From Nymphaea colorata (Eukaryota > Streptophyta > Magnoliopsida > Nymphaeales > Nymphaeaceae), in the NCBI RefSeq assembly GCF_008831285.2, contig NC_045138.2:29917934-29981933 (forward strand): DNA of 64,000 nt. The letters are read 5' to 3'. The notes under the pieces were generated by a model. That model saw nothing but the letters and a program-made list of their open reading frames with translations. It had not been told where the DNA came from and did no database searches. Below are positions 34,447 to 55,588 of the stretch, piece by piece (the stretch's first letter is position 1; every line of letters begins with the position of its first letter). Both the position numbers and the translations under genes were made by a program.

Positions 34447-35760
34447 GCATCTGTTCTGCAAGAGTCTTCTTTCAGGATTCCATACGGCGGCCTTGTTCTT
34501 CTGAAGCCACCTGTTCTTAGTTCTACCATTATTTTAGTTAACAGAAATATTTTGTTCTTCAATTTTGATGAGAAATCTTTTCCTTAGTTTCTCTCTCTTC
34601 TGTGTTCCTTTGAACCAAAATCCCTGCAATGTTGCTTGATTTTGTTGAAAATGCAAAATATAGTATGGTGTCGGCGGTGTTTGTGATGGATTCTCTCATG
34701 CAACGAATTCTGATTTCTGCTTTGAGCGCGCGGTTTTGTGGAGTCGTCGAATCCTCAAGAACAGGTTTTGGGAATGGCGGAGTATGCTGAGAGTGAGGTG
34801 TCCTTTTGATTTCATTCAATTTCATGATAATTTTCTACTATCAGCGCATGCATTCTCCGTTTGATTAACTCCCTCTAACCTACTAGTGGTGGGATATAAA
34901 TGGATTGGATATTGTTTGTATTCATTTAACTGGATCTGGTGAAAAAATTCATATCCTATTATAGCGTGGAGTTTGCTGAACCCATCTAAATTTGGGGTCA
35001 TATACTAGTGGATCCGGACTCGGTTTTAGGAAGTATGGACTCAACCCAACTCCAAATCCAAATCGCCTTACACAAGATCGGATCCAGATTACGCATTATC
35101 CGTTAAAACCAAAGTTGGCAAGGGCCCAACATGGAACTGGGTACATTACCTCATACTTGTTTGTGCCAGAGAATTGCAACCTGGAATTAAATCTATGAAT
35201 GAGAACGGGTTCTGACTGGATCCAGTTCAAGGTTCAAACTAGTTCATATATGAACTAATCCAAATCCAAAAATCATGTTGTTGGGTTTCAGACTTAGATT
35301 CGGACCCGTGACAAGGCTGCAAGATGGACTGAAGCGAACTGGTAACTGGATCATATTTTCTTACAAAGCCTGGGTTACGAAGTCCGATTTATACATGGAT
35401 AACGAATCAATCGAACCCATTTACAGCCCGAGTTAAGCCGTCGATCATGCATGTCTCTTGTTTTTTTGCATGGATCTGATTTCCCGGGATCTGTAACTCC
35501 TCTGTCCAACCCGACTCATTGTCACAGACCCAAACCCGAATATTGATTCGAACTCGGGTGCGCTCAAGCGGGTTGAATATCCGAGATCACTTGAAATTAT
35601 TGGCGGTTGCAACTTGCAACGAGTCTGCAGAAGAAAGGCATCCGTTGGGGCCGTTGACGCGTGGAGTCATCTGACCCGTCAGGATAAGTAAAAGAAATCT
35701 GGACCGTCCGTAGAATTATGGAATCCTTGCCGTTGATTTTACGCGACCGGCTCCCTTAAA
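34447..35760. other. Intergenic between eIF3L and unit A
   Basis: Contains eIF3L 3' UTR and then degenerate repeat-like sequence (34980-35560) with words such as ccaaatccaaatc and ggatccggactc, similar in style to 4580-4720 and 39550-39800. No gene seen. Confidence 0.4.
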
Positions 35761-35779
35761 GCCACACCATTCCTTGGCT

Positions 35780-38700
35780 ATCCTCACGCCCTGGTTTCAT
35801 TCGGCTCGTCGGCGAGGGTTTCCACTGCTGCAAAGGTTGGCGGCATCATCTTCTGCGGTCATGGAGGCGGATCGGTGGCGCCGGAATCTCTCTTTAGTCT
35901 TTCCTCCTCGTGCCTCTCCTCTGTGAGTCCTGCTTCTTTTTTTTGTCCGGTCTTTTTTTTTTTTTCCTTTCTGCTGTCTCTTTGCTTTCTGTGTTTGCCG
36001 GTCGGCAGGTTTCATTTCCCGACCCTTGAATCGGATATTCTAACCTGTTTGCGTTCAGATCTTTGCAGATCTCCAAGTGTTGGCCTCCGTAATAAGGCTT
36101 TCTTTAGATCCATGTCGATTTGAAACTTTCTTCCCCTTTTTTTTTAATTTTTTTTGTAATTTTCTTTTATAAGCATGCCTTTTTTTTTCAATAATCGGAT
36201 TCCATGTGAAATCTTCGTTTCTGCTAAAAATGTCTTGTTTCACCTCTTGCGTTTCTTGTAGTTCTGGTCTAAGCGTATCTAACTTGTCTTCCTTTCTTTC
36301 GATTTTCCTAGGAGCTTCTTTTCCTATTAAAGGTCTCGTAGTGCCTTTTCCCGGTCTGTACAACCAGTCTGGTTTCGTCAAAACTGTTCTTTTATGTTTT
36401 TTGTGATCACAACTGTTGAGATTGTTAACGGTTCCGCAAAATTTTCTGATGATTTTCTGAACTTTAGAACTTTGCAGTATGTTGTTTCAATTTCTTGTGT
36501 CTTATGCAAAAAGTCTGGTTTTTCTTCTGCTTTTCCCTACTTTACATAATTGTTACATGGTTTCTGCTCCTCATCTTTTTCCTTCGCCAGATAATGTTTT
36601 CCCCAAGTGTTGAGCCCTATGAAGTTAGTTCTGACTGCTTGCTGTTGATCGGCCAAGACAGAGTGTTTTGCTGCCATTCAAAGACTTGTTCTTGTTCCTT
36701 TTCTTGAAAATTTGCGATCTTTTTGGAAATCTCCTCTGTCTTCTTCATTGTTTTCTTAGCATGTGAGTTCATGATTCTCGTGAGCAGGTTATGTTCTTTA
36801 TTGTTGTGGGACTTTTCCGTCCTTGTCTTACCCCCTTAGCAACTTTTTTGCCCCTGCCGTTGATATTCAGTGTATTAGATTTCTGATGGTGATTATTTTT
36901 CTTTGGTAGGTCTCGCCATGGGGGATTTTTCTTGCCTCAACATGGGGGAGTAGTTGGATAAAGGTTTCTGCTGGTTGACGGACGAAGCTGACGAGTAACG
37001 AGTTTGTCCCTCCCTTCCATCACGTTTTATGATCAAGTTATGTGGTTTTGAAGTCTTATCTATTTATACTGGATTTGATTACTTGGCATTCAGGTTCCAT
37101 TGCTTCACTGGAGGCTTATTTACCTTTAAGATGTAGCGATTGGCGTCCAGGTTTGATGCCTGGAAAATGATGGTCCATCGTTCCTGCAAGGGTTGTTTGT
37201 GGATGTGTCTGTAAGGTGTCTGGATATATGTTATATGTCCTCTGTGCCTGGTCGACAAAAGCGGACGATGAGGGGATATCTGGTTTGGCAGGTGTGCCAG
37301 TCGTTGTGTGTTTTGAGGCTGTGCCTTTGCGGGTGCGCTTGCGGGCCAGCCAAAAAATTTAATAAAAATTTTCCTTTTTTTGGGGGAGGGTTTCGCAGGG
37401 CGTTCTTGCCCGGGCCCTCTCGTGTGCGTGTGTGCTGTCTCTCTCTCTCTCTCTTTCTCTCCTCTCTTCTCTCCCTTTCCCTCTCCCCTGCCAGTCTAAT
37501 GCCATCGCGAATTCTGACCACTTCCAGACCCTATGTGGACTTCTCGAGTCATCTATCGTTCAGCGCTTCTCATCACATCGTGGTGCACAGGTATGCGTGT
37601 GTTTGTTGCTGTTGATCGCAAAGTTTCATTCTGCCTTATTTGGGAGCACAATGATTATCTTATTACACATTGAGTATTTAAGTTGGGTAAAATATGAAAT
37701 TGTGGGACAATGCAGGCTTTTGCATATTCATTGGTTTTGAAAAGTCTATATATTATATCATGACCATATGAGAATGATGATAGATAAGCTCTTCAACATG
37801 GAGTTGCACTTCGATACCATTTTGTTCTTCAGTTTATTGTCAGGATAAAGATCTTGAACATGGTGTTGCACTGGGGCATTATTTTGTTTTTCAGTTCATA
37901 GTCAGGCATGCTAAACCTGTTCAACATACCGTGGCAATTGTTCCTCTTCGCTTCACAATCACGCAGCGTATGATAAACTGACTTGCACCGATTTTTGGGC
38001 CACCAATATTTGCCTCATGTTATCCTGAAAATGATTCTCGCATTCAGATTTGGTGCACGGTTCAAATGCACTCATCTTGGTTCACCATCTAATACTTGCC
38101 TTCATCTTGCTCATTGCTTTAGGGGCAAATTAAGGCTTTCATTTGTTTTTGCTTGTTGGCCCTTTGGTGCCCTTTGTTTTGTTGTATATTGTTTTGTCGT
38201 CCTTTGGTATTGGGAGCAAGTGGTCTTGGTGGCGCAGCACTTTGTAAATAGGAGGAGGATGATTGGACTTGCCGCGAAGCCGTTTGTCTCTTGGACTTGC
38301 TGCCGTGGCTGTTGCGGCAGTTTGTATTGCTGATGCTGGATCCTGATACTTGGAGTTGCTGCTATGGCTGTTAGGAGGAAAATGTATTTCTAATGCTGGA
38401 TCATGATGCGTGGACGGTGCCTGCAGAAGGCGAAGGAGACCTGTCTGAGTAAATTTGCTTTTTGAAATGATCTGTATGTGTGAAGGGGCTGTGCTTTCGC
38501 AGGTGCCCTTGCGAAGGACCTGCTCAGTCTTTAATGAAATTTGCTGTTATTTTGGCGGGGGAGGGCTCACCTGGTCCTTGGGGACGCCTGTCTTCGGCTG
38601 CCCGTCCTCATGCTTTTTCTTTTTCCCTGTTACCTATTTTTTGATTTGCATACAAGAATTTGAGGATCATGATTTACTCAGGTTTTTTCGACCGTTCCTG

Positions 38701-39170
38701 CTCCTATAGTAAAAATTGTTTGCAGATTGAAGTTTGTACTTTCCCATGCCGAATGACTGCTACCATGTCCGTTTATTTGTAGGAACTGCCATCAGCTGCC
38801 TGTCGCACCGTCTTCACAAGATTCGAAACATTCATCAAGGAATAATTTTTTACGAATTCCATACGTGCTTGTGTTGACTATGTAAGATTCCTCAAAGGTG
38901 TTCTTGTGAAGCTACTGGACGGCTGCTTTGATAACTCTCCACTCCTCCTGCCGGGTGATTTTGCCTCTTTCGTCGCCGTAAATGCTTGCGCTGAAGTTTG
39001 GAGAGGGCGGGAGCCTAAGCTAGTCCACCAGAAATGGCCGTGTGCACGAGCTGATGGTGCCAAATAATATTCATCCAAAAGCCGAACTTTTACTTGATCA
39101 AACAAATCCCATATCTTCTACCAGTCGCGTGCTCAAGAGTTTGGATGGTGGAAATAATATGCTCTCTTGA
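35780..39170 (+). repeat. Amplified unit A
   Basis: Near full-length copy of a sequence family present four times up to 51.8 kb. It starts with a GC-rich, exon-like stretch at 35810-35927 (ATG at 35861, MEADRWRRN, donor-like CT|GTGAGT), continues with T-rich intron-like sequence, and is colinear with unit D from about 36600 to 37460 (for example CTGTTGATCGGC, GTAGCGATTGGC, the GTGCGCTTGCGGGCCAGCC core). It then contains a three-copy 65-70 bp repeat (37780-37960) and ends with a block reading AAGCTAGTCCA near 39020. It could be a non-coding transcription unit, an old transposon, or a decayed gene; no known protein is recognisable. Confidence 0.7.
37310..37460 (+). repeat. Conserved GC-rich core, unit A
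   Basis: About 130 bp: GGCTGTGCCTTTGCGGGTGC, then GCGCTTGCGGGCCAGCC, a T-rich spacer, GGAGGGTTTCGCAGGGCG, GTTCTTGCCCGGGCCCTCTC, then a (CT)n tract. It is the best-conserved block shared by all four units (others near 42450-42600, 44895-45020, 49648-49800). GGGC...GCCC could form a small hairpin. A more diverged version lies at about 38485-38600. Confidence 0.85.
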
Positions 39171-40100
39171 AATGAGAAGTTTTACCTGGAATCCATGACC
39201 TGTGCCTGCCGTATGCTAGAGCGGATGAGTCAAATGACATGACTTATTGTAACAAAGTTTCTCTTGGTTTGGCGATTCTCATGTTTTGTAGCATGCATCA
39301 GACTGCTTATGGTTGAAAATGTATCAATTCTTTTATCAATTGATGTACCCCTTATTCGTAGGTGTCTTAGCCGCAACGTTCTCCACACTAGGATTCAGTC
39401 TGTTTAAGTTTTTCCAATAAAGCCGTCTTCTACCAACAATTATCTTCTGGGTTAGTTAGATAGTTAATCGGCATCTAGTGAAATGAGATACAGACAGCTC
39501 TAATGGCTTGTGTGACACTTGACATCTCACACCTGATGTGAAATCGATTACTTTTGTCGAGACACAAATTTTTCTTGGATTTGAGTTTGTTTAAATAAAT
39601 GTCCAGCTAATTTTTCTTGTCTTTGCCACTGGTCATTTGATTGGATTTTAACTTGGATCAACTTAAAATGCGAAGATATTGGTACATGATACTTATTTAA
39701 GATTAAATCAGAATTCAAATCTGAATGGGTATCCAATTGGCTTTTTTTCTAAAACTAAATTTGAATCCTAATTTGGTTCGACGACATTTTTATTTCTGAA
39801 TTCAATCTACTTTTTAAGAAGATGTTTTTGTTTTTTTAGATCGGACCTGTTTCTTTTTGAAGTAGTTCGATAAGCATTCACATGTCCTGTAGAGTTCTTA
39901 CTCATGTCTACAGTATGGTTCATCCGACCGGAATATGAGCCGCTGAATGATCTCAATCCGGAATATGAGCCGCAGAAGAAAACATTGATCAAACCGATTC
40001 AAGAATAAAAGATGGATCTGTCCAGTAATATGCTGATCCATCAACTTGTTTGCCTTATGCGGATCGGCACATGCCTTCTTATTTCTTGTTCTAGATCTCG
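39171..40100. other. Spacer between unit A and the first RopGEF-flank copy
   Basis: AT-rich; 39550-39800 has the degenerate gaatccaaatc-type repeat, and a short direct repeat CCGGAATATGAGCCGC occurs twice near 39928 and 39958. No gene seen. Confidence 0.4.
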
Positions 40101-40600
40101 GAAAGTTAAGACATTTTTCTGAAAATTTTAAGCTGGAAAATTCTTTCTGTGTCTTATTGCGGCGCTGACTCTTTCCGGTTGTGCAAACTGGATCTACGGC
40201 CATCCCCAGTATAAATTGGTGGCTGTTCTTGCAAAATGGCAGTAGCTAAGCAACAAAAGTATATGCAAAGTGCACTGAAGTCTGAACGGAAGATATATTT
40301 CTTTTTATCAGCTCCTATAAGCTGAAACCACGCACGGATGAAACTTTTCAGGAAAAACTAACCTCCAGTGCTGTTTTTGTGCATGAAACGGGCTGTTATT
40401 AGATGCCCATGTTAGTATGACAATTTTTTCTTCATTAATCGGTCTTGGAGATTGAATTCCTTCCCAAAATCATGGCATATAAAGCCAGGATCAAGAAAAC
40501 GAAAGCACATAAAAACGACAGGAGAAGAAAGGAAAGAAAAATCCGCCGTCTGTAATCGAATCAATGTCCAACTGGAGGCTGTCTGTTGGTTCTAGATAAG
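40100..40600 (-). repeat. Copy 1 of the RopGEF 3' flank
   Basis: Matches the RopGEF downstream region at 52390-52770 and the second copy at 47210-47680: AACTGGATCTACGGCCAT, TTTTCAGGAAAAAC, TTATTAGATGCCCAT, GAGATTGAATTC and TCTGTAATCGAATCAATGTC occur in the same order. No RopGEF coding sequence is recognisable beyond it. Confidence 0.85.
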
Positions 40601-42080
40601 GATTGGGCAGGACCCCAAGAACAAATGCAGAAACAGTTTGCCTGAGGCAACCGCCATTTAACAGATTCCCATGCAGTGCTTATCCATGGAACCTATATGT
40701 AGAGCATGATACCTTCGGAGGGCGCTGTTTTAAAATTTCCATCGAGGAACGCGGTCATCCGTCATGGGACCGAAGGGGAGATGGTCGGCCATTGCTGTCC
40801 TGCCTCGCCTGCACAAGGCAAACGAAAAGGGCTTGGAGATTCGTGCATTCCGTGAGGTGGCTCGTCCGTAGGCATGAAAGAAGGGAGGAGTCCTCCATTG
40901 CTCGGCCTTGTTATCATTTTCTTGCCTTCCCTTCTTGATGCGGCAGCAGAAGCAAGGAAAGAAGGAAGAGGGGGAGTATGGCTGGAGGGTAGAAGATGCG
41001 GTGAGGAGGGCGAGTGAATTGCTGAAATGCCAGGCGGAGAGAGAGAGAAGCCGCCATCGCCGGCCTACGGAGCGCGACCGCTTCGTCTTCTCCCTCATCG
41101 TCTCCGGATCGATCACGGTACTCTCTCTCTCTCTCTCTCACAGTCGGATGTCTAATGCAGACAAACTGTTCATTGCTAGCTCCCTTTCTTTCTCCTCCTC
41201 TCTCTTTTGTTCTTGTTCTGGTTTCTGTTCTTTGTTCTTGTTTTTGTTTGCTAATTTTTTTGTTCTTGCTTTTCGTTTGTTTATTTTTTTCGTTTGTCGC
41301 TTTTATCTTTTTCTTTCGCCTTTGTCGATTAGTGGCGTCTTGTCACCAGATTCATTTCCGTTTTGTCAGCTCTCTCTCTCTCTCTCCTCTCCTCATCTCT
41401 CTCAAATCACATGGACTCGTGGTTTCGGTAGAATCAGAAATCTTGTATTATATTTTCTTGCTATCCACTGTTATTGAGGCCTTCCTGCATCGTTGGGACT
41501 CTAATTATCTACGTAGTTTCTGTAAGTTCATCATCTTATGTTTTCTTTTTGTCCAGCTTTTAATCGACAGTTTATCCAATTCGATCAAATCTTGTAAATT
41601 CTTTTTATAAATCCACTTTTTACATTTCTTCCCTAGGACCCACTTTTGCTCTTTTTCGGCAGACTAAAGATGGATTTTGGATCTTGGAGTGTCTAACTTT
41701 CTTGACCGAAAATTATAAGCCAGTTCGATCAAATCTTGTAAATTCTTTTTATAAATCCACTTTTTACATTCCTTCCCTACAGTGAGAACCCACTTTTGTT
41801 CTTTTTCGGCGGACTAAACCTTACCAGATTATGGGGGGAATATGGATTTTGGATCTTGGAGTGTCTAACTTTCTTGACTTCGCTCTTCTTAGCAGCTATG
41901 AATGACATCAGCAGATAAAACCAACCACATCGAATGACTTTTCTGTTTCCTACTTAAAGAGGTACACCGAGGTTCTTTCCATTGCTTCTTAAATTAAATA
42001 GCAATTGGTAGCTGGAACACAAGTGTTTCAAGGAACACCAAGTTCTTATCCAAGAGAACAAGTAGTAACAATGTTTATTA
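40601..42080 (+). other. Unassigned region with a GC-rich exon-like stretch
   Basis: 40939-41116 is GC-rich and purine-rich with an open frame from ATG (MRQQKQGKKEEGEYGWRVED...) ending at a donor-like ACG|GTACTC at 41117, followed by T-rich intron-like sequence. This resembles the layout at the start of unit A, but protein similarity between the two is weak and I do not recognise the product. It may be the first exon of unit B. Confidence 0.3.
41580..41880. repeat. Direct tandem duplication, about 146 bp x 2
   Basis: Segments starting TCGATCAAATCTTGTAAATT at about 41581 and 41726 are nearly identical, with two short insertions in the second copy. Both end in GGAGTGTCTAACTTTCTTGAC. Confidence 0.93.
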
Positions 42081-42581
42081 TTTGTAGTAGATTTCTGATG
42101 ATGATGCTTGATGCCTCAGCATCGTATGGGAGAGAAGAGGGACAAAAGTGTTCTGGTTTTTCGAGACTGATGAGTATGTCCTTTCTTTCTTTGATAAGTT
42201 TGATGGTAGAGTTACGTTGTTTTTGAAGTCTTTCCTATTTATACTGCAATTGGTTGCTTGTCGTTCAGGTCCACTGCATCACTGGAGACTTCGACTTCTT
42301 TGCCTTTAAGATGTATTAATTGAAGTCCAGGCTCGATGCCTTGAAATGTGATGTTTGTTCCTGCAAAAGTTTGTATGCGGATGTGTCTGTAAGGTGTTGG
42401 GATTGACTATGCCTGGTGGAAGAAACCAGAGGAAAAGTGGTCGTCTGCTCGTGGCTGTGCCTTTGCGGGTGCGCTTGCGGGCCAGCCAAAATAGTTCAAT
42501 AAAATTTTTCCTTTTTTGTTGTGGGGAGGGTTTCTTAGGGTGTTCTTGCCCGGACCCTCCCTTGTGAGTGTCTTCTCTCTT

Positions 42582-42620
<39 letters not shown>

Positions 42621-43268
42621 TACCCCCTTCTCTTCTTTGTGTGTATGAGCCATGTTTATTCCAACATCTTGTTGGAACTTGGAACCATTTTGTATGCTCC
42701 ACTTTTCTCTCTTTAAGCTCTCCTTGTTTCAACATCATGTTGGAATCATTTTGAGTAATGCGCATGTGCTCTCTCTCTTCTCCATGTGTATGATCTCTGT
42801 TTGATCCAACATCTGTTGGAACCATATTGAATGATATTCCAATCCAACCATTTTGAGTAATGATGAATAGTAGCATATCTCCCTCCCTCTTTCTCTTTAA
42901 TAGCTTTTGCCAATAGCACATGATCAGTAATATCCTGAGAGATTGGCACAACAACTTGGGCCTGCAGCTGGTAGGCGGCCAGTTGCATGTTCGAGTGTCT
43001 TGAGCATCAACTTTCTATGCTGCAAATGAAAAGGCACCAGTGTACAAGTTATAGCGCGTAATGAATGCCACTCTCTTCTCTCTCTCTCTCTCCTCAACCT
43101 CACCCCACTCTTTAATGGAATCTGCCATTTGAGAACCAACATGAATATTACCAAAGAGGTCCACATAAAGACTTGGGCTTGTGGCTGGTAGGCGGCCAGT
43201 CACTAGTTTGATCATCATCTTTCTATGCTGCAAAACTGGTGCACTAGTTTGAGCATCATCTCTCTCTC

Positions 43269-43327
<59 letters not shown>

Positions 43328-44380
43328 AATATCTTGTAATAGATGAAAACAATCACACAAATTTTGTTGACGCATCACATCGGTGCTGCACAAGTTGAAG
43401 AACATTTGGGGTGTCACTGCATAATCATCAAAAGCAACATTGGACCTTGGAACGTGGGACGAAGAAGGGAGACTTCATCGCTCGAATGGTGGGACCTCCT
43501 TTCATTCGCGTGGAATGCCATCGCTAGTTATGGCCATCGCAAGACCCTACACATACTTCTCCAAACTTCTCAAGTTCAGCACATTTCATCACATCTTGGT
43601 TTACAGGTATGAGTATGCTTCTAATTGATGGTTGCAATCTGACTTAGTTGAGAATGCACTGAATTTATGTGCAATGAGTATTTAATGATTTAAGATAAGT
43701 TTGAAATCGTAGGATTATTCAGACTTCTTGCATCTTCATTGTTTTCGAGAACATTTGATTATATTTTAGAGCATGTGGTAGCACACATAGTAACGATGAT
43801 AGATTTGCTCCTCAACATGAAATTGCACTTCGATACAATTTCCTTCTTCTGTTCATAATCAGGAATGATAAAGATCTCGAACAAGGAGTTGCACTTGCCT
43901 GTTCATAATCGTGCATGATAAATCTGTTCAACATATATAAAGTTGCAGTTCTTGTTCTTCTGTTCATAATCACGCACGGTATGGTAAACTAACTTGTTTG
44001 GTCCTTTGGCGTTGGGAGCAAGTGATCTTGGCGGCGCACCACGCCTATCCATAGGAAGATGTTGCTCGATGGGAGTTGCGGCTAAGGCCTTTGTAAGCAT
44101 GTACGTGGAGCTTTTGATGATCTTCTCTTGGAGTTGCTGCCATGGCTGTTCGATCACGGTTTTTGCTGTTATATTGAGCAGCTTGAACTTTGGAATTTCC
44201 CGAGCCGAATGACTGCCACAATGTCCAATCATTTGCAGGTTGGGGAGAACAGCCGCTATGACCTGCCTTTGGAATCGTCTTCAGAAGAATGGAAACATCA
44301 TCCAAAGAATAATTCTTACGAACTCTTAGGACTCCGCCTGCCTGGTAATCTTGCCGCTACAATCGCCGTGTAGGACATCT
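42080..44380 (+). repeat. Amplified unit B
   Basis: Shorter copy of the unit A/D family: TTTATACTGC and the TTCAGGTCCACTGC block at 42240-42340, the GC-rich core at 42450-42600, expanded (CT)n tracts at 42575-42600 and 43258-43325, the ACCCTACACATACTTC block ending in a donor-like CAG|GTATGAG at 43609, the 65-70 bp repeat array at 43800-43960, and a 3' block matching unit A at 38700-38990. No recognisable protein. Confidence 0.7.
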
Positions 44381-44439
44381 GCAAACTCTTTTAAGTTTTT
44401 CTTCCATCTTGTACTTGGTAGGATTTTAACTTTTTTTTT

Positions 44440-46800
44440 TTTCTTTTTCTTTTGTGGGTTGACCCCTCGGCTGTTCTTGAATGGGTTGCTTTACCTTGTT
44501 TGCATTCAGGTTTTTGCAGATCTGCAATCTTTTGTGTTGGCCGGTCGGCTGTTCTTATTTTCCGGCTCCTGAATGGGTTGCTTTACCCTATTTGCGTTAA
44601 GGTATTTGCAGATTGGCAGATTAATATTGCCATATGTTAATAGGTTTCATAAGAGTTATTTTGTTTTTGAAGTCTTGTCTATTTATACTTGTAATTCAGG
44701 GTCCATTGCTTCACTACTGGAGGCTTCTTTTTGCCTGTGCAAGATGTAGCGATCGGCGTCCTTGTTTGGCTCCTGGGAAATTGTGATCTATTGTTCCTAG
44801 AAGGGTTGTTTGTCAGACTGTAATTAAGACGTTGAGAACGTATGTCTGTGGATGAGGAGATGTCTGGCTTTGCATGTGTTCTTGTGGTCGTGCGTTTGAG
44901 GCTGTGCCTTTGCGGGTGCGCTTGCGGGCCAGCCAAATTATTTAATAAAAATTTTCCTTTTTCTTGTGGGGAGGGCCGCGGGCGTTCTTGCCCGGGCCCT
45001 CTCCTCTGCGCCTGTCCTCTCTCTCTTCCCCTCCCTCTCTACTTTGTCTCTATGAGCTTTGTTTAACCCAACATCTTGTTGGCACCATTCCAACATTTTA
45101 AGTAATTTGTGTTTTTGCTCTCTTAACATCTTGTTATGGGACCAAAAATGTTAGTAGCATTTCTCTTGTACATTCAGTGACTTGTTCTTATTCAATTTTG
45201 TTCATGCATTTCCATTTTGTCGACCCTCTCTCTGTCTCTCTCCTCTTTGTGTGTATGATTTCTCTTTGTTCCAACATCCAATTGAAACCATTTTGCGCAA
45301 TGTTGAAGATGTAATCTCTCTCTCTCTCTTTCTCTCTCTAAAGAGGTTGGTACAACAGCTTAGGCCAGTAGCTGGTAGGCGGCCAGTTGCTGGTTTGAGT
45401 TTCAAAGTGTCATCCTCTTGTGCTTTAAACAGGAGGGCACTGAAGCACATTAAGGGTGTTACTCCCTAAGTACCCAAAACAGACCCTTGAAAGGAGAGGA
45501 GGGAGAAGGAGGAGGCTTAACCCTTTCCTTGGAATTCCATTCACAGGAGTTACCGTCATGAATTGTGGACATCACAAAACCCTACATGCATGGACTTCAC
45601 AAAACATCTGTCATGCACCAGAGCTCTTCGCATCCTGCTGCACATGTATGCCTATCTTTCGTTGTTGGTTGTTGGTTGCAATGTTTCGTTTTTCATTATT
45701 TGAGGGCAACACTGATTATCTTAAATGCAATGAGTATTTAATGATTAAGTTTGAAATTATAGGATTATTCTAAGTTTTTTGCATCTTCATTAGTTTGAGT
45801 TTATATTTTGTGGTATGTTGTAACACATATAGCTATGATGATAGACAAAGCGCTTCAACGTGGAGTTGCTCTTCGAGACCACTTTGTGCTTCAGTTTATA
45901 ACTAGGCATGACAAACATCTTGAACCTGGAGTTGCACTTGAACTTGGGCATCGTTTTGTATTTAAGTTCACAATTAGGCATGATAAATCTGTTCAACGTG
46001 CAGTTGCATTTTGAAACATTTGGTTGAAACTTGATCCATTTTCTTGTATGGAAGAGTTGGTGAAAGTTGATAAGTTCCAGACGGATGGTTGTGTTGCCGT
46101 TGCACCAATCTGTTTTCTAACAACTTGTGGATTTCTTCCTTCTACTCTTTGCTCATTCGGAATATTCGTAATTGTTTCTTTGTGGTTGTTGTGTTCTTCA
46201 CAGAAATGCTGCAATGAAGTTTAGAGAGAGAGAGGGAGAGAGGGCAAGCTACTCCATGTACAATGGCTGTGTGCACGACAGTGGATAATGATGCAAATAA
46301 TATGATCAATAAAAGTGAAGAAGTTTTCTTGCTCAAACGAGTCTCCTGTCCTCCACCTAATGCACCTCACAGTTTCATGTTACAGAAGCGCTGCAGTGAA
46401 TTTTAGAGAGAGAGAGAGAGAGATATCCCAAGCTAGCCCATCTACGATAGCCGTGTGCACAAGAGCGGATGATCGATGCAAGTAACTATGTTTTATTGCA
46501 ATAAAGAAGTTTTTTACTTGGACAAATGAATCTCACGTCTTCTACTTAATGTATCTGATCGTTTCCTGATTGAAGTATATCTTATATTTGTTAATGGAAG
46601 GACGCTTCTGGGCATGCTTGTCTCTTAAGCAACAGTGTCATGTTTTGATGTTTTCCATGGATCGATTGCAACTTTTGGTAGCCGATCGAGGACGTGTGCT
46701 AGCCAAGAAAAGAAAAGAGAGCATATGTTGTCCAACTGAGGCTTCGAAATACTTATTCGCAAGATTAAGACTGATCGAGAAAATTTTGCACTGAGAACAG
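44440..46800 (+). repeat. Amplified unit C
   Basis: Starts with GGTTTTTGCAGATCTGC and GTTGGCCGGTCGGC blocks shared with units A and D, has an internal near-duplicate of that start (GAATGGGTTGCTTTACC at about 44479 and 44571), the GC-rich core at 44895-45020, the 65-70 bp array at 45840-46015, and two tandem copies (period about 185 bp, from about 46195) of a block containing TTTAGAGAGAGAGAG, AAGCTA and GCCGTGTGCAC-like words. Confidence 0.7.
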
Positions 46801-47209
46801 TAATATTAAAATCTGCCCCAAAACTCAGCAGTTCTCAATGCCAAACGGCTCCATGGCGCAGCTGTTTTTCAATAAGACCTCATTTAGTATTAATCATCTT
46901 CTGCTTCATCGCGATTGTCTAACCCAATATGCGATTGAAAATAATCGAAGAATGATTGAAATTAAAAGATGAACCAAACAATGTGTGGTCTCGTTGATGA
47001 AGAGGAAACAACTTTAGTGATTTTGTGCTCATGATTGCCGCTAATGCCAGCTTATCGATTAGTTAGATTAAAAAAAAAATGACCTCAGTGATCTCTTAGA
47101 TTTTTCATATGTTCAGACAGACAAATTTAACATTAGGTTGCTATCTAATAGTTGCCACTCAAAATAAGGGAAAGGGCAGATACACAAGTGGAAATTTCCA
47201 TTCCTTTTT

Positions 47210-47880
47210 CTGTTTATTTTAAGTTGGAAAATTTTGCTCTGTGTGAAGTAGATCTACCTCCGTTCCCATTATAATTCGGCTGCTGATGTTGCGAAACAGC
47301 CGTAGCTTAGAGGGGAACTAAAAGCTAGGCAAGGAAAGCACTGGAGGCTTCACTGAACGAATGAAAAGTTTTTATCAGCTCCTGCAAGCTGAAGCCAAGC
47401 ACGAAATGAAAATTTTCAGGAAAAAATGACCTCTAATTGTCGTTTGTATGTATAAAACGCGCTATTATCAGATGCCCATTTTCTGCTACGCTATCATAAT
47501 TTTTTCCTTCAATAACCAGTGTTTGGGATTGAATTCTTTTTTCAAATTCAGGGCCTAGAAAGCTAGGATTAATAAGAAAACGAAAGTACTCGAGAAGAAA
47601 AGAGAGAAAAAAAAAGAGATGACTATGCCATGCCTGTGCTATGCTCTGTAATCGAAGCAATCTCCATCAGGATGTCTGTTATGAGAAGTTAGTGACTATG
47701 CCATGCCTCTGTGACACTAGTCAGGGCAAGTCATCTGCTCGGGTTCCTCAGCTGCCATACAAGTGTTGAAACCACACTGATGCAAGCAAGACTAGTGAAT
47801 CTTCTGAAAAAGAACAACATGAGGAGCTCAAATTGGCACACACTTTCTTCTTCTTTCTCTACATGAAAACTTTTTAGTGC
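47210..47880 (-). repeat. Copy 2 of the RopGEF 3' flank
   Basis: Close match to 52390-52970: TTATCAGATGCCCAT, CCTAGAAAGCTAGGATTA, GTGACTATGCCATGCCTCTG and CTCAAATTGGCACACACTTTC occur in the same order and spacing. It runs straight into the decayed RopGEF exon that follows. Confidence 0.92.
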
Positions 47881-48110
47881 CTTGATGTTGCGCTTCTTAG
47901 GCCACTTCTGAATTCTCGAGTATCTCCATATAAGAGTTATTCTTGATGGTCATAATGCTGGCAGGATTCACGAATAGCGTCTCGCCGTGGATTGCCTGTT
48001 TGATCCTGCTTGTTTGAGTATCCTTCTCCATCAATTTGGCGGCCCATGAAATCGGTAGAGTTATGCCGTTTTCCTTCGCCTTAGAATTCATCTTCAGGAT
48101 CCGAAGAACA
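47881..48110 (-). pseudogene. Decayed copy of the RopGEF last exon
   Basis: Reverse-strand sequence aligns with the end of the RopGEF gene at 52968-53220: copy ITLPISWAAKL versus gene [10 protein letters not shown], copy GETLFVNPASIMTIKNNSY versus gene [18 protein letters not shown], then MEILEN versus IEKLEN. It keeps an open frame of about 64 codons but lacks the conserved start of the exon (the [13 protein letters not shown] block) and all the rest of the PRONE domain. It is therefore a truncated fragment. Further homology resumes at 48482-48580, which matches the intron between the last two RopGEF exons. Confidence 0.88.
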
Positions 48111-48189
48111 AATGTAAGGCGGTTAAACCAAATGTTTATCTGTGATCTTTAAAAAAAAAAAAAGATCTGGACTTATCCAAAACCAGTGC

Positions 48190-48400
48190 TTGTCTATATA
48201 TAGAGGATGATTCAGTGTAAGAAAGAGGTAGAAATTTATGAGGCGTTCAGACTTCGGGAAGAGGAGGAAGTAATTCTTACACGGTGTTTCTCCACTGTGA
48301 GATGCTCGTCCCCGTCCAGACGCCAGAAGCCGATCGACCATCTTTGTCTGCAAACAGGGTGCACCCCTTCATCTCCCACAGTAAAAGAACAGAGGTAAGA
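48190..48400 (+). other. Non-homologous exon-like insert inside the RopGEF duplicate
   Basis: Between the two parts matching RopGEF lies sequence with no counterpart there: a TATA-like TCTATATATAGAGG at about 48193, an ATG at 48207 with an open frame of 63 codons (MIQCKKEVEIYEAF...), and a donor-like GAG|GTAAGA near 48391. It may be captured DNA or simply diverged intron. No family recognised. Confidence 0.25.
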
Positions 48401-49767
48401 TCCTGCAACTCAATATTCTGTTACAAATTAACTTGACATGAACGTATCCAATGGGTGTTTGAAACCCAACATATATCTCCTGCAGGGTGAAGAACAAGAA
48501 CTCCAAATGTCAAAACAAAGGCTTAATAATCAAATGGAGAAAGGCCATGAAAAACTAAATTTAGCTTCGTTTCTTTGAACAAGCTTTTGCGGTTTTCTTT
48601 TTTTCTTGTCGTGGTCAACTCGTTCTTTGGTCTTGAATTGTCCAGTCTGGTTGTTTTACCCCATTTCCGTTCTGATCTTTGCAGATCAGTTCAAGTTTTT
48701 GGTTGTCCGGTCGCCCACGGTTCTTATAATGGGTTATTTTAGCCCGTTTGCGTTCAGGTAGTGGCAGACTCGCAGGTTCTTCCCTTCTAGCAAGCTTTCC
48801 TTCACATTTATTTAGATTTGGAGCTTATTTCCTCCTATTCTTTTTGCAATTAATTTCTTGTATAAGGCTGGTTTAATTTCTTTTATTAATGATGCTTCTC
48901 GGAGAAAGATTAACCCCATGAAGTCATTTCTTGCTACTCACTGTTGATCGGCTAAATAAGTAGAATGGTTTCTTGCCGCTAGGAGACTTGTTCTTGCTCC
49001 ATTTCTTGAAAATTTATAATCTCTTCCCGAAATATCCTGCGTCTTCTTCATTCTTTTCTCAACATGTAAGTTGATGATTCTCGTAGGCATGCTATGTTCT
49101 TTGTTGATGTGGGACTCCTGTATCCTTGTCCTCTTCTAATCTTTAGGATCTGTTTGCTTCGTCATTGATACTCTTGTCCAAGATTTTGATTGTGATTATT
49201 TTTCTCCAGATGGTAGAACTCCTCATGGGGGATCGGTCATGCCTAATCAACGTGGGGGCTGGAGGAGTGGGATAAAAGCGTCTGCTGGTTGAAGGATCAG
49301 ACAAGACAAGTTTGTTCCTCCTCTCTATAACATGTTTGACAATAAGAGTTATGTTGTTTTGAAGTTTTATCTAGTATTTATACTGGATTTCGTTACTTGG
49401 TATTCAGGGTCCCATTGCTTTACTACTGGAGGCTTCGTTACCTGCAAGATATAGCGATTGGCCTTCCATGTTTGACGCCGATGGGAAATGACGATCCGTT
49501 CCTCTGTTCCTGCATGTAGATGTTGTTTGTGGATTTGTCTGTAAAAGTACAAGAATAACTATGTTCATATGGTTTCTGAACCTGGTCGACAAAGGGGGAG
49601 GATGACAGGATGTATGGCTTGGCATGTGTTCTTGTGGTCGTGTGTTGGAGGCTGTGCCTTAGCGGGTGCGCTTGCGGGCCAGCCAACATATTTAATAAAA
49701 TTTGTCCTTTTTCTGTTGAGGGAGGGTTTCGCAGGGCGTTCTTGCCCGGGCCCTCTCTTGTGCGTGT

Positions 49768-49803
<36 letters not shown>

Positions 49804-50879
49804 ATATATGAGCTTTGTTTGTTCCAACATCTTGTTGGCACCCTTTTGTCTTGCATGCTTTTGCTCAGCTAACATCTTGTTAGAGAGCCTGACATGTTAT
49901 TTGCACTTTGCACTCTCTCTCTCTCTCCTTTTTTAATAGCTTATGGGAGTTGAAGAATCTTCGGCCTTCGCTTAGATGGTGGGAACTCCTTCCCTCATAC
50001 AGATTACCGTCCCAAAATGGATTTCTCCAACAATCCCATCACATCATGGTGCGCAGGTATGCATGTCATTCCATTTGTTAATCACAAGATTTTCTTTTGC
50101 CTTTCTTGAGAGCAACATTGATTATCTTATATGCAATTCGTATTTAATAACTTAAATTAAGTTTGAAAGTGTAGGATTATTCAAAGTTTTTGCATCTCCA
50201 TTGGTTACCAAAAGGTTTGTTCATATTTTATAGTATGTGGCAGCACATATGGTTAGAATGAGAGATAAGCTCTTCAACACGGAGTTACCCTTCGAGACCA
50301 CTTTGTGCTTCAGTTTACAATCAGGCATGATAAAGATCTTGAACATGGAGTTTGCAGTTGAAGTTCCATGTTTTAAAATATTTCTGAAACGGGGTTGTGC
50401 AGTTGCTATTGAAAACTATGGATCTGACATGCTATGATCTTAGATCTCGGGGTCCAAATTAGTTATGCGTTTTCTAAGCACTGAACCGAGCATAATCTTC
50501 TGCTTGTCTTTTTCTGAATTTCGGGAAATGGGTGTCCCACTGGTTCGCCTGTTCACATTTTTTTGTTCCCCTGTTTATCATCTTTTTCAGTTTGAATGAT
50601 TCACACACGCTGATCACCTTTTCTAATTTGTAAGATTGGGACTACTTGTCCAGCAACCGGAGGCTGGCTGTGTTTCTGATGCACCAAGCTGTTCTGTAAC
50701 TGCTTGTGGATTTCTTGCTTGTACTCTTCGCCCATTCGCAGAATTGATCATTGTTTCTTTGTGGCTGTTGTGTTTTTTCACAGAGATGTTGCAGTGAAGT
50801 TTAGAGAGAGAGACAGAGGCCAAGCTAAAGGCGATAACGGTGCTAGCGATAAGGAGGCAACTGGCTGAACAAGTTACTA

Positions 50880-51300
50880 TATTTATCGACTACACAGAAG
50901 ATAATGAAGCAGCTGTCAAACAGGGAGGCGTCGAAGTGTAGAGCTTGATCTATACTTAGAATTTTTGTGAAGGCATTCGTGTAATTTGTTTTTGCATTTA
51001 AAAGGTTTGTTCTAACTCCTAATCCTCATTCAGAGGGGGGCGATTTTTTGTATTCTTTGATCCATAGTGAAAAACTCTGTACGACCGTGGATGTAGGAGA
51101 AATTTGTCTCCGAACCACGTAAAATCCTTGTGTCGTCTTCTTCCTTCTCTTCTTCTGTTTCTTCTCTTGGTATCATAAGTGAGAGAAAGAGAGGGTCTCG
51201 TTCTTAGCTTCTAATCCTTGTGTCGTCTTCTTCCTTCTCTTCTCCTGTTTCTTCTCTTGGTATCATAAGTGAGAGAAAGAGAGGGTCTCGTTCTTAACTA
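50880..51300 (+). mobile_element. Probable Ty1/copia LTR fragment with duplicated 3' end
   Basis: The stretch CGTGGATGTAGGAGAAATTT, then CCGAACCACGTAAAATCCTTG and a pyrimidine-rich run ending in TTGGTATCATAAGTG is typical of the 3' end of plant copia LTRs followed by a primer binding site (usually TGGTATCAGAGC, complementary to initiator tRNA-Met). The final 90 bp, including the TGGTATCA word, occur twice (from 51124 and 51214). No gag or pol sequence follows, so this is a remnant. The left boundary is uncertain. Confidence 0.6.
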
Positions 51301-51726
51301 GAAGCGCAACAACTAAACAAGGAAATTTTCAGGTGTAACGATCGAAACAATCCTTGTAATTGAGGAAATAATCTTGTTGGTTGTTGTAATTCGAATATAA
51401 ATAAAGGAAGATCAAACGACATGATTTATTGGAGAAGTTTTCTTGGTCAAACGGGTCTCATGTTTTCTACCTAATGCACCTGAGAGTTTTGTGTCACAGA
51501 AAAGCTGCAGTGAATTTTAGAGAGAGAGGGAGAGGACAAAGTGGAATTTCATTGATGAAAAACAAGTTCGGCTGACAAGAGGTCACCAAGAAACAAAGGC
51601 AATCGAACCAAAGAATAAGGGCAACAAAAGAGAAAAGACACTGAACAAAAACAAGTGTAAGGAGAGAGAGAGAGAGAGGGAGCCCAAGCTAGTCCATCTA
51701 CAATAGCCGTGTCTACAAGAGCGGAA

Positions 51727-51727
51727 G

Positions 51728-51756
<29 letters not shown>
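51727..51756. repeat. (TA)n microsatellite
   Basis: About 14 TA units interrupt the AGAGCGGAAGA block at the end of unit D; the matching place in unit C has no such run. Confidence 0.95.
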
Positions 51757-51758
<2 letters not shown>

Positions 51759-52389
51759 TTATTGAAATGAACAAGTTTTGTACTTGCTCAAAAGAATCTC
51801 ATGTCTTCTATCCTAATGCATCTGGTTGTTTCGAAGTGTATCTATGAGCATACCCCAAAAATAGGGCAAATTCATGAAATACTTTAACAAGTGTTTTATG
51901 AATGTAGCTCACTTTTTTGGGCAGTTTCATGAAACAACTGTTGACAAACCGATCTCACAATTGATACATATCGATCATTTTTGACAAGCTATACGTGTGA
52001 AGGCCTCTCGTAACACCTCAACGCTATTCCAAGTCTACAGGTTTGTGGAAATCGGTGGTGACTTTGGTTCATTTTCAGAATTGTATGTTAATGCATGAAT
52101 TTAATGTGCGTCGAGCCGTTGTAGGTAATTAAATGTCTCTATAAGAAAATACAGTATTTTTGAAAGACAAGTTTTCTTATTTTATGTTTAAAGAACATTA
52201 TGTGCTTGTTTCAAGAAACATGTACCATTATGTATGACATTTGATTGTCATATTCGAAAAATAATATTTATAATCATGCTATGTTTCCTAAAATAAGGAC
52301 AAGGTGTTTATGAATAATGTGCTTTAAGAATCTGTGTAGTACAATATATTCTTATCAAACTGGATGAAGCAGTGTTCTAAGAAGTTGGA

Positions 52390-52967
52390 AAATTTTTTTC
52401 TATGTGAAAACTGGATCTACAGCCATTCCCAGTGGAAACTGGTCGGAGATCTTGGAAAACAGCCGTAGATAAACCAAGCACGACTGAATTTTTTCAGGAG
52501 AAAATTAACCTGTAATTGCTGTTTGTATGCGCTATTATCAGATGCCTGTTTTATGCTATGACAAATTTTCCGCCATTAACCGGTGTTTGAGATTGAATTT
52601 CTTCTCCAAATTCATGACCTAGAAAGCTAGGATTAAGAAAAGGAAAGTACACAAGAAGAGAGGAAGAAAAGGGAAAGAAGAGGTCTCACGAAGATTCCTT
52701 TGCCAAATTTATACAACTACAATGATCAATCTACGCTCTGTAATCGAAGCAATGTCCTTCAGGCTTCTGTCATGGGAAGTTAGTGACTATGTCATGCCTC
52801 TGTGCCTCTAGTCAGGACAAGTCATCTGCTCGGATTCTTCAGCTGCAATACAAGAGTTGAAAGCACGCTGTGATGCAAGCAAGACTAGTGAATCTTCTGA
52901 AAAACAACAACATGAGGAGCTCAAATTGGCACACACTTTCTTCTTCTTTTTCTCTACACGAAAAGTT
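52390..52967 (-). other. 3' flank of the RopGEF gene
   Basis: Downstream sequence, part of it probably 3' UTR, of which diverged copies lie at 40100-40600 and 47210-47880. It holds the blocks CCTAGAAAGCTAGGATTA, CTCTGTAATCGAAGCAATGT and TTGGCACACACTTTCTTC. Confidence 0.7.
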
Positions 52968-55588
52968 TTAGTGCCTTGATGTTGGGCTTCTAAGGCCACC
53001 CAGATTCTCAAGCTTCTCAATGTAAGAGATCTTCTTGGTTGTCACAATGTTGGCAGGTTTCACAAATAACTTCGCATCTTTATGCATCATGTCCTGTGGA
53101 TTACCTGTTTGATCCTGCTTATCCGAGTCTGTTTCTTGATCAACTTGCCAGCCCATGAAATCAGATAGAGTCATGCCATTTCCGCCACCTTCCACGGAGT
53201 TGATTTTCTTGACCTTTTCTACAGTATTTGGGGGCTTACCAGGGCTATTATTCTGATGGGCAAGTGAAGGGTTTCTTGTGAGAGAATCGACAAACAGAAC
53301 ATCATCTATTCGTGATAGGACCGTGAATGCTAGGCTTTCCAATACTCTGGAGTAGCTCTCTATTATAGAATGGCCAACATCCTGCAAAGCAAAGAACAAG
53401 AGCACTGAATGTTAACAAAAATTTAATTATCAAGGCCATGAGAAACAAAATTTAGCACGGTTGCTTTGAACTTACTTTGTTGTATTGGATCTTGCTGATA
53501 TCAAGCGCAGATTGAGGAATTCCTGGAAATCTCTGCTTAAGGAGAAGCAAAATGGTTTCTGCTCTTTCTTCGAACTGCTCTCTTTTTTCCAAGCTTACAG
53601 CAGAACCCCATGATGATTTTCCATCCTTGTTGTGCATCTTTCGTTGCCAAATTATCACCGAGGCTTCAATCCTATTCATCAAGTCCAAAATTTTATGCTC
53701 TGTGGAGAGGTCAATGGTGGAAAGAAAGTGTAGAGGATCGAAGCTATCCACTGTGATACTTCGATATATTGAATCGCCTAAGCTTGCTCGTCCATTCTTA
53801 CCATCAAAAAGGGAAACAAAGCTCGGTTAATCAAATTGTTGTCATCTTATGTTATCTGTAAAGAAATTATCTTTCACGCAAAAGCATCTTCATCTTCCTA
53901 AAATGGGTTATTCAGGATTATTTGATAAACTCCATAACCTTGTTGGTACTACAAATGTGATATTGTAAATTTCAAGAATAAGGTACTCCTGCCATCTTAA
54001 GCAAATCTGCAATTAAAGATGGCAAATTTTTCCCAGAAAGTCAATACCTTTGGGAGGGATTCGATGTACGCTTCAGGAATCTCCATTTCGGTGAGCACCT
54101 GCGCGTTGATGGCCATTGCTGCCTTGAGGACTTGGTTGACGGAGTCCTTCTGAAACTGAAGCCATTTTCTTGATATATCGGACAATCCCTCGGGGGGAAC
54201 TCTTGGTTTAGGAAGCCACCATTTGTCTCCCTGTCTCTGCTGGGCACTCCCTTTATCTGCTTCTTCTTGGTCTCTAGAAACATACCAGAACTCATTCCGA
54301 TCTTTGAAATTATCAAGGTACTCCTGCTCAAAGCCAATATATGTTGGTATTTCAATCCATGTCGACTTTTATTCATAAAATGGACTAACCATGAAAAAGA
54401 TGAAGAGAAAAATTGAGTTTTTCATACTATTAGCATGGCATCAAGTTTTCGAAGGGCTGGGATATTAACAAGCAAGTCCTTCCGCTGACGGGTCACCATT
54501 ACCTGCACACAAGACGCACGAGACGTTTAGAACCATTACAAATGAATCGACTGCAACCAAGTTCAATGGATGCAGTGATCTGTGGCCATTTTAATCAGAT
54601 TTAATCGAACAGTCTCTCAGCAGAGAAAAACATGATTGATAGTTGGTACTGCTGATGACGGAGACGGGAAAGAAAATGAAGTTTCGAAATTTTTGTATCA
54701 TTTTAATGCAGTAGCAATGTTCTGAGGGAACAGACTTCTGGGAGGAGTTTGAGAATTTGCAGAATTTTGCTGCTGATATATTCTGAAGGAACATTATGTT
54801 CAGGAAGAACAGGTACCCACCTCCATGCTAGTCCCATCTTTAGCTATCTGCTGCGAAGGAACAAATTCCACAATGTAATCCGTCACAGACAATAGCCAAT
54901 CAACTTCCTTCTTCCATCTTGCTTTTCTTTCCGCAGACATGGGCTCCAACCGGTATTGTTCTCCAAATACTGAAGCTGCTTGAAACAGCAAAAATCGAAC
55001 TACGGATTCACGAACGCTAATAACGACGATGACAACATGAGATGGTGTCCTACGAGGAACTAACCTGCCAAGTTGGTGATTGCATTGGACAGGGCTAATG
55101 CAGATGAAACTCCCTTTCCACCTCCAGACATGTCTTCACCTAACAGCAACTTTGCAAATCGTTCCTTCATCAAGTCAATGTCTGCAAAAGATTCGTAACA
55201 CAGTAAAAGAAGCATTATTGAGAAAAGAATCAGCAATTTCTGCATTGGGAAAGTGTATAGTACATGTGCCAATAGTCTTGCTATTGTAATCAGGTGTACC
55301 AACAAAATAAAACCAACTTCTGGTGTTCCTTCTCTTTTCTCTCGTGAGATTAATGTACTTGCCTGATGGCGGCCGGTCCTTGCTGAGACCATCCTTGCCA
55401 AGTCTTGATTTTGGCGCCTCGTTGGTAGTTTTCCGCAGAGAAGATCCTAACTGACCATCCGATCCTCTGTCCGAAGGCGACTTTGATCCTGCACTCCTGA
55501 ACAGCAGCTTATCATCCACCGCATTACTGCTAGGTTCGAACACCAAACTGTGTGCTTGCCTGCCTTCAACCATCCCCTTCTCAAACAT
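52968..55588 (-). CDS. ROPGEF: Rop guanine nucleotide exchange factor (PRONE domain)
   Basis: Complete gene, seven exons in transcript order: 55588-55363, 55181-55065, 54975-54821, 54502-54428, 54323-54048, 53796-53476, 53381-52968; about 527 residues. RopGEFs activate plant ROP small GTPases at the plasma membrane through the PRONE domain, which spans about residues 76-430 here. Landmarks: [165 protein letters not shown] and [14 protein letters not shown]. The N-terminal 75 residues and the C-terminal 100 are variable, as usual. Intron 1 fits only if a GC donor (CAG|GCAAGT) is used; the nearby GT two bases downstream breaks the frame. The leader is rich in GA repeats. Which RopGEF it is cannot be told. 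Confidence 0.95.

Follow-up and report, generated by a model that had tools for sequence, protein, structure and literature searches.

A tandem array of putative structured long non-coding RNA genes convergent with a RopGEF gene in Nymphaea colorata

What has been copied repeatedly beside the 3' end of a RopGEF gene in the water lily Nymphaea colorata, and does any part of it appear to be at work? The DNA analysed (64 kb of contig C1, hereafter the window, whose numbering is used unless another location is named) carries four colinear + strand units, A to D, between 35.7 and 53.5 kb, together with two additional copies of the RopGEF 3' flank. Our analysis suggests that the unit is an old long non-coding RNA (lncRNA) gene, probably spliced and convergent with RopGEF, whose core is an element of about 110 nt, predicted to form two hairpins, in the presumptive exon 2 (six intact copies). 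The element in A-D has diverged less than its surroundings and, judged from its letters, is constrained. We consider it reasonably probable that a structured lncRNA gene lying tail-to-tail with RopGEF was amplified as a block, and that this element is its working part.

Layout of the array and anatomy of the unit

An earlier note on this DNA had described a tandem amplification of an unrecognised unit together with the RopGEF 3' end. Self-BLAST gives colinear same-strand repeats and confirms that observation, including the order A-f1-B-C-f2-D-f3/RopGEF (f1 to f3 being the flank copies, with f3 the native one; Table 1). The units extend over ~35.66-39.3 kb (A), 40.6-44.4 kb (B), 44.43-46.6 kb (C) and 48.6-51.85 kb (D). 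Units A and D match on the same strand at 77% (36615-37461 against 48914-49797, E 8e-174), the A/B, A/C, B/C, B/D and C/D stretches are alike at ~67-88%, and the flanks f1, f2 and f3 (the last over 52382-53181) are mutually 70-79% identical. The decayed last exon and partial intron of RopGEF that the note had seen in one flank copy are also borne out, since f2 (47.2-48.07 kb) holds a frameshifted last-exon piece with a stop inside (tblastn E 1.2e-9) and 48478-48580 matches 53380-53471 (E 5e-8), which covers the beginning of that exon together with intron sequence.

Donor-like sites had been reported at equivalent places, and a GTATG site indeed occupies the equivalent position in all seven copies compared, namely A-D, a B-like copy (B2) and a degraded C-like copy (named C2, as distinct from contig C2) in a second cluster on contig C1, and a copy on contig C6. 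The six alignable copies agree in their CAG acceptor; that of C6 was chosen by eye. Unit A and the C6 gene share a promoter block (Table 1), and the stretch from element to donor aligns between them (z-score 5.7); the sequence after the donor does not align (z -1.0), and the C6 gene likewise shows no alignment with the upstream parts of B (z 1.1) or D (z 2.3). Units C and D both start close to where exon 1 of A ends and therefore lack the promoter and first exon of A. The earlier note ascribed GC-rich, exon-like starts to the units; in B this start turns out to be homologous to the 5' end of a different gene. A protein-coding reading of the unit was ruled out because no reading frame through the first hairpin is common to the six element copies; ATG-started frames through it differ among copies, and in C6 they are absent altogether. 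Right after the exon-2 donor, 37786-37906 and 45844-46011 contain 62-nt and similar repeats around a short ATGGAGTTGCAC-type frame.

Constraint on the element, its copies and the partner locus on contig C6

The genome scanned comprised 407.8 Mb in 783 contigs, and match counts at E 0.001 are lower bounds. A 2-kb query from A gave at least 19 matches, of which six lie in the array, five in the second cluster (C1:2.022-2.037 Mb) and one at C6:5.501 Mb, the other seven being matches to the CT tract alone. Hairpin 1, searched as a 35-nt pattern with three N positions and up to three mismatches, matched six times in 408 Mb with 0 mismatches each (A, B, C, D, B2 and C6), and the reversed pattern used as control gave zero matches over the same 408 Mb. 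The 5' region of unit A (35400-36620) had no genome match at E 0.001 other than itself. Across the queries run, the unit core was confined to three low-copy loci, apart from a junction fragment on contig C2. Because of this low copy number and the lone self-match of the 5' region, the unit as a whole, as far as genome scans go, is not a transposon. The "old composite transposon" considered in the earlier note is thereby set aside, and we give the idea practically no credence; what is dispersed is the insert within D, with at least 53 genome matches (40 of 302 candidates scored).

The C6 element lies ~6 kb from the stop side of a RopGEF gene, in the same convergent order as on C1. That RopGEF is by far the closest paralogue among seven other RopGEF-exon matches (87% vs at most 56%). 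The synonymous divergence (Ks) of the C1/C6 pair is 1.12 and the non-synonymous divergence (Ka) 0.20 over 559 codons (own Nei-Gojobori script; exon edges may inflate the value). As this Ks is near the peak of ~0.9 given for a water-lily duplication in the part of the published account at hand (PMC7015852), the pair may stem from that duplication.

The element consists of hairpin 1 (35 nt), an A/U linker with AAUAAAA (as AATAAAA in six of six intact copies) and hairpin 2. Pair counts refer to the 15 pairs among the six intact copies and leave out the weak copy A2 in unit A and the degraded copy C2 of the second cluster; A2 was retained in the model search and the fold scores, C2 in the model search and the divergence comparison. 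Hairpin 1 is identical at 33-35 of 35 positions in every one of these pairs, those with C6 included (33-34/35), and it is conserved in its loop too. The exon stretch just 5' of the element is 64-76% identical among A-D and unalignable in C6. Kimura two-parameter distances among A-D are 0.08-0.22 for the element vs 0.29-0.50 immediately upstream (A-D 0.078 vs 0.295; A-C 0.092 vs 0.339; C-D 0.134 vs 0.293; B-C 0.158 vs 0.483; and B-D, the farthest pair, 0.220 vs 0.501), with binomial P against the upstream identity of 8e-7 to 0.002 over the six pairs. At the Ks of the RopGEF pair a neutral 35-mer is expected to retain ~42% identity, so that 33/35 has P 7e-11, and hairpin 1 has changed less than the non-synonymous sites of the PRONE gene next to it (the RopGEF Ka above). 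The conserved patch stops at the edges of the element.

Table 1. Features of the array, its surroundings and the C6 locus (window positions unless a locus is named)
Feature	Position	Strand	Basis or remark
Promoter block of unit A, common to C6 gene	35660..35755	+	local alignment score 51, best of 200 shuffles 46, z 6.7
Unit A presumptive exon 1	35780..35922	+	sequence reading; GTGAGT donor at end (by eye)
Unit A presumptive exon 2	37094..37590	+	CAG acceptor + GTATG donor
Structured element, copy A	37317..37425	+	
Weak second element-like stretch in unit A (A2)	38487..38595	+	model R1 25 bits, E 0.0008; fold z -0.06
Flank copy f1 of RopGEF 3' side	40180..40587	.	self-BLAST
5' part of unit B, homologous to thioesterase gene 5' end at C1:29739180-29739646 (-)	40744..41139	+	72% identity
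Unit B presumptive exon 2, with CT repeats	42269..43606	+	
Structured element, copy B	42453..42563	+	
Unit C start, same break as unit D	44428..44637	+	matches contig C2 fragment (L029) right after its RopGEF-intron part
Unit C presumptive exon 2	44700..45645	+	
Structured element, copy C	44900..45005	+	
Unit C duplicated terminal-exon-like block	46204..46568	+	follows CAG sites
Flank copy f2, with broken RopGEF last exon	47221..48071	.	self-BLAST + tblastn
RopGEF exon start + intron piece fused to lncRNA intron of unit D	48478..48590	.	
Unit D presumptive exon 2	49408..50056	+	
Structured element, copy D	49650..49760	+	
Dispersed repeat inserted in unit D	about 50935..51296	.	long terminal repeat (LTR) retrotransposon-like by eye
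Native RopGEF 3' side (f3): last exon + 3' flank	52382..53471	-	PRONE match + self-BLAST
PRONE (RopGEF) exons	53-54 kb	-	domain match in window
Thiopurine-methyltransferase-like stretch	near 3 kb		domain match in window
Paf67 (eIF3l-type) gene	27-31 kb		domain match in window
2-hydroxyacid dehydrogenase	61 kb		domain match in window
tRNA-Arg(ACG)-like sequence, degenerate	L013:4378-4449 (C6 locus)	-	ARAGORN, 90% threshold

Amplification history, proposed mechanism and alternatives

The homology of D to A begins at A 35915, beside the exon-1 donor, and at ~48.59 kb a RopGEF intron is joined to the lncRNA intron; the repeated block would therefore comprise the lncRNA gene from intron 1 on plus the RopGEF tail. 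The same fusion recurs in a lone fragment at C2:20.606 Mb (C2:20605801-20607200). In the unit tree C groups with the C-like copy of the second cluster and then with D, B groups with B2, and both stand apart from A (98-100% support), in line with the flank distances (f2-f3 0.17-0.23; f1 to either 0.29-0.30). Intron fusion, tree and distances agree in supporting the repeated duplication of a block of unit plus RopGEF 3' end that the sequence had first been read to imply. The gene matched by the 5' part of unit B lies 219 kb away on the same contig and the opposite strand, and three of its exons, joined by hand, match Pfam 4HBT (E 2.7e-6) and structures of Thioesterase superfamily member 2 (E 3e-7). 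Because the gene is more complete at that locus, we infer that B acquired the thioesterase 5' end and not the reverse. Copia-type retrotransposon-like open reading frames (ORFs; by eye) directly adjoin the thioesterase gene (C1:29735001-29743000, locus L028). For the segment 48072-48478 of D a source match was found for the right part only. In the second cluster (C1:2021789-2039197; L010-L011), B- and C-like stretches occur in permuted order along with a D/f3-like piece, with a 10.7-kb insert right after the B2 element and a C-like copy that lacks hairpin 1. Since the cluster looks like B-C permuted, an origin through a circular intermediate was considered; a tandem array that suffered deletions would explain it equally well, and the junctions favour neither.

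We propose that the lncRNA gene and its RopGEF neighbour would already have been paired before the old duplication, from which C1 and C6 would each retain a pair. The C1 pair would then have undergone tandem copying of a block that reaches from roughly the end of lncRNA exon 1 to the intron preceding the RopGEF last exon, yielding A-f1, B-C-f2 and D-f3. Among the copies, the old promoter is visible in A alone; B carries the thioesterase 5' end and D another upstream segment. The B-C block would later have been copied 28 Mb away and partly decayed. The RNA would be transcribed and spliced, a protein may recognise hairpin 1 by its sequence, the linker holding AAUAAAA could, together with hairpin 2, set 3'-end choice or stability (a regulated 3'-end site or a stability switch), and additional copies may raise dosage. 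Given the constraint on their elements, C and D would be, or long have been, transcribed, readthrough from B being a possible source for C, which has no visible promoter. The earlier suggestion of an undescribed non-coding transcript family gains support from the low-copy core, the conserved donor and the constrained element. We tentatively go further and suggest an undescribed plant structured-RNA family that has stood beside RopGEF since the old duplication and whose tandem copies lost the original promoter, one taking over a thioesterase 5' end, with the element still under constraint.

Several results weigh against the proposed lncRNA gene. Exon 1 and intron 1 of A do not align with C6 (z 1.4), nor does the part of exon 2 that precedes the element (z 1.3 in A, -0.7 in D); the dehydrogenase of the window has no copy on C6, and window ORFs find no match besides RopGEF in 50 kb around the C6 element. 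Part of the likeness among the A-D elements could be due to gene conversion, which does not explain C6. The fold z-scores are modest (B2 -1.3, A -2.2, C6 -2.3, D -3.0, B -4.2, C -4.7), the antisense strand of C6 folds as strongly as the sense strand (z -2.4 and -2.3), and other windows in D (51160, z -2.6) and C6 (22410, z -2.6) fold as low as element windows or lower. Covariation is not above that of shuffled alignments, with two of 30 pairs changed on both sides (equalled by 105 of 500 shuffles) and a score equalled by 63 of 500, so covariation support for the two-hairpin fold is weak; the clear compensatory case lies in hairpin 2 of C6, where one G-C pair is replaced by A-U. This, and the fact that constraint by itself cannot separate RNA from DNA, leaves some room for the element working as DNA, for example as an enhancer or a boundary between convergent genes, which we regard as improbable given its place between a conserved acceptor and donor. 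Moreover, paired cells are kept at 97.8% over the 30 pairs and at 33-58% when partners are slid (in a structure derived from the same sequences), and the sense folding energy is below the antisense one in six of six copies, partly since G-U pairs count on one strand only.

Decay is the other concern. It is unlikely, though worth taking seriously, that the array consists mostly of pseudogenes in which a mutational cold spot or gene conversion has kept the elements alike, with A or C6 as the sole working gene. The promoterless state of C and D and the two lesions of the second cluster, namely the loss of hairpin 1 and the insert that interrupts B2, would fit such an array, while the retention of hairpin 1 on another contig (C6) and the ending of the conserved patch at the element's borders speak against it. 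The "decayed gene family" of the earlier note is accordingly half right, fitting the truncated copies and failing on the A-D elements, which are alike beyond their surroundings. The note had also speculated about antisense RNA reading into RopGEF, an action for which the sequence offers no evidence. Transcripts that run into RopGEF and silence it would suit the convergent order retained on C1 and C6 and the RopGEF pieces in the copies, yet some 6 kb separate the element from the stop side of RopGEF on C6, and the constrained part is not RopGEF sequence, which makes silencing a very improbable role.

The structured lncRNA gene that we favour would be of wider interest, as plant lncRNAs rarely have measurable sequence constraint. 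With six element copies in one genome, one of which adjoins a paralogue of the neighbouring gene and can thereby be dated, evolution may be said to mark the functional part, and this natural copy series indicates which segment of such an RNA matters. Should relatives exist across angiosperms, the element would supply a covariance model and a short list of testable bases for an lncRNA, and the array, if our reading is true, would show clearly how block duplication and promoter replacement can give rise to new lncRNA genes.

By its domain matches (Table 1) the window is nuclear DNA of a plant. Elsewhere in it, 1148-3296 and 7639-10152 form a tandem duplicate (68-77% identity) that includes a thiopurine-methyltransferase-type exon. 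Between unit A and f1, 39870-39981 (- strand) matches the plastid psbJ 3' untranslated region family at 41.6 bits (gathering score 65.6), possibly a plastid DNA insertion.

Comparison with known plant RNAs

Rfam gave no match at the gathering score in the window and weak matches only at a relaxed threshold; ARAGORN at default and a pattern scan of viral contigs returned nothing of use, and the letters of the element were not found in the literature text searched. IPS1/At4 and TAS3 resemble the units in being plant non-coding transcripts. The miR399 mimic core of IPS1/At4 showed 8-10 mismatches of 22 (shuffles 7-9) and the miR390 site of TAS3 6-9 of 21 (shuffles 5-8), neither of them a match; the TAS3 tasiARF showed 6-7 of 19, and 4 of 19 in the C6 unit (one shuffle 7), which is not convincing. 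ENOD40 reportedly encodes a short peptide with an HGS-type end; no ATG-started ORF of 25 amino acids or fewer with HGS or IHG occurs in the regions scanned. Like the units, ENOD40 is a plant RNA described, in the portion of the source used, as keeping its structure better than its peptides (PMC4563214). HID1 and lncCOBRA1 are likewise lncRNAs whose conservation is driven by structured domains, as far as the extract consulted goes (PMC10226578). Their domains are snoRNA-like, and Rfam places no snoRNA at the gathering score in the window.

The units may be the water-lily representatives of the GUT15/CR20 lncRNAs. This identity would fit the mechanism proposed above, and we treat it as a serious possibility that we stop short of calling probable. 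A stable tRNA-like molecule reportedly derives from GUT15 and is said to lie in its final intron. The C6 gene has a degenerate tRNA-Arg(ACG)-like sequence on its sense strand in a presumptive late intron, the sole ARAGORN match in 50 kb at the 90% threshold and without another genome copy at E 0.001. However, that relaxed threshold yields four matches in 184 kb, ARAGORN at default and Rfam give no tRNA at the site, the window units have no tRNA-like match at 90%, and a canonical T-arm turns up once in the window too, as well as in six of 200 shuffles of the C6 unit. GUT15 homologues are reported as predicted miR156 targets in the text available from one study (PMC6572118), to which we give no weight because of the CT tracts; the miR156-like site has 4 mismatches of 20 in cluster 1 (5 in one shuffle), and the match is the CT repeat. 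Tandem amplification and replaced promoters are not described for GUT15/CR20 in the portion of the literature at hand, and no such lncRNA array is described among the literature matches listed for lncRNAs of this type. GUT15/CR20 transcripts are multi-exon and alternatively spliced and lack a long ORF; the units have a conserved donor and no common frame, their splicing being predicted from sequence. Compared by description, and within the part of the source covered, GUT15/CR20 is the best fit among the plant lncRNAs considered (PMC10226578), being non-coding, multi-exon and conserved, as the units are predicted to be, with a tRNA-like sequence perhaps in common with the C6 gene.

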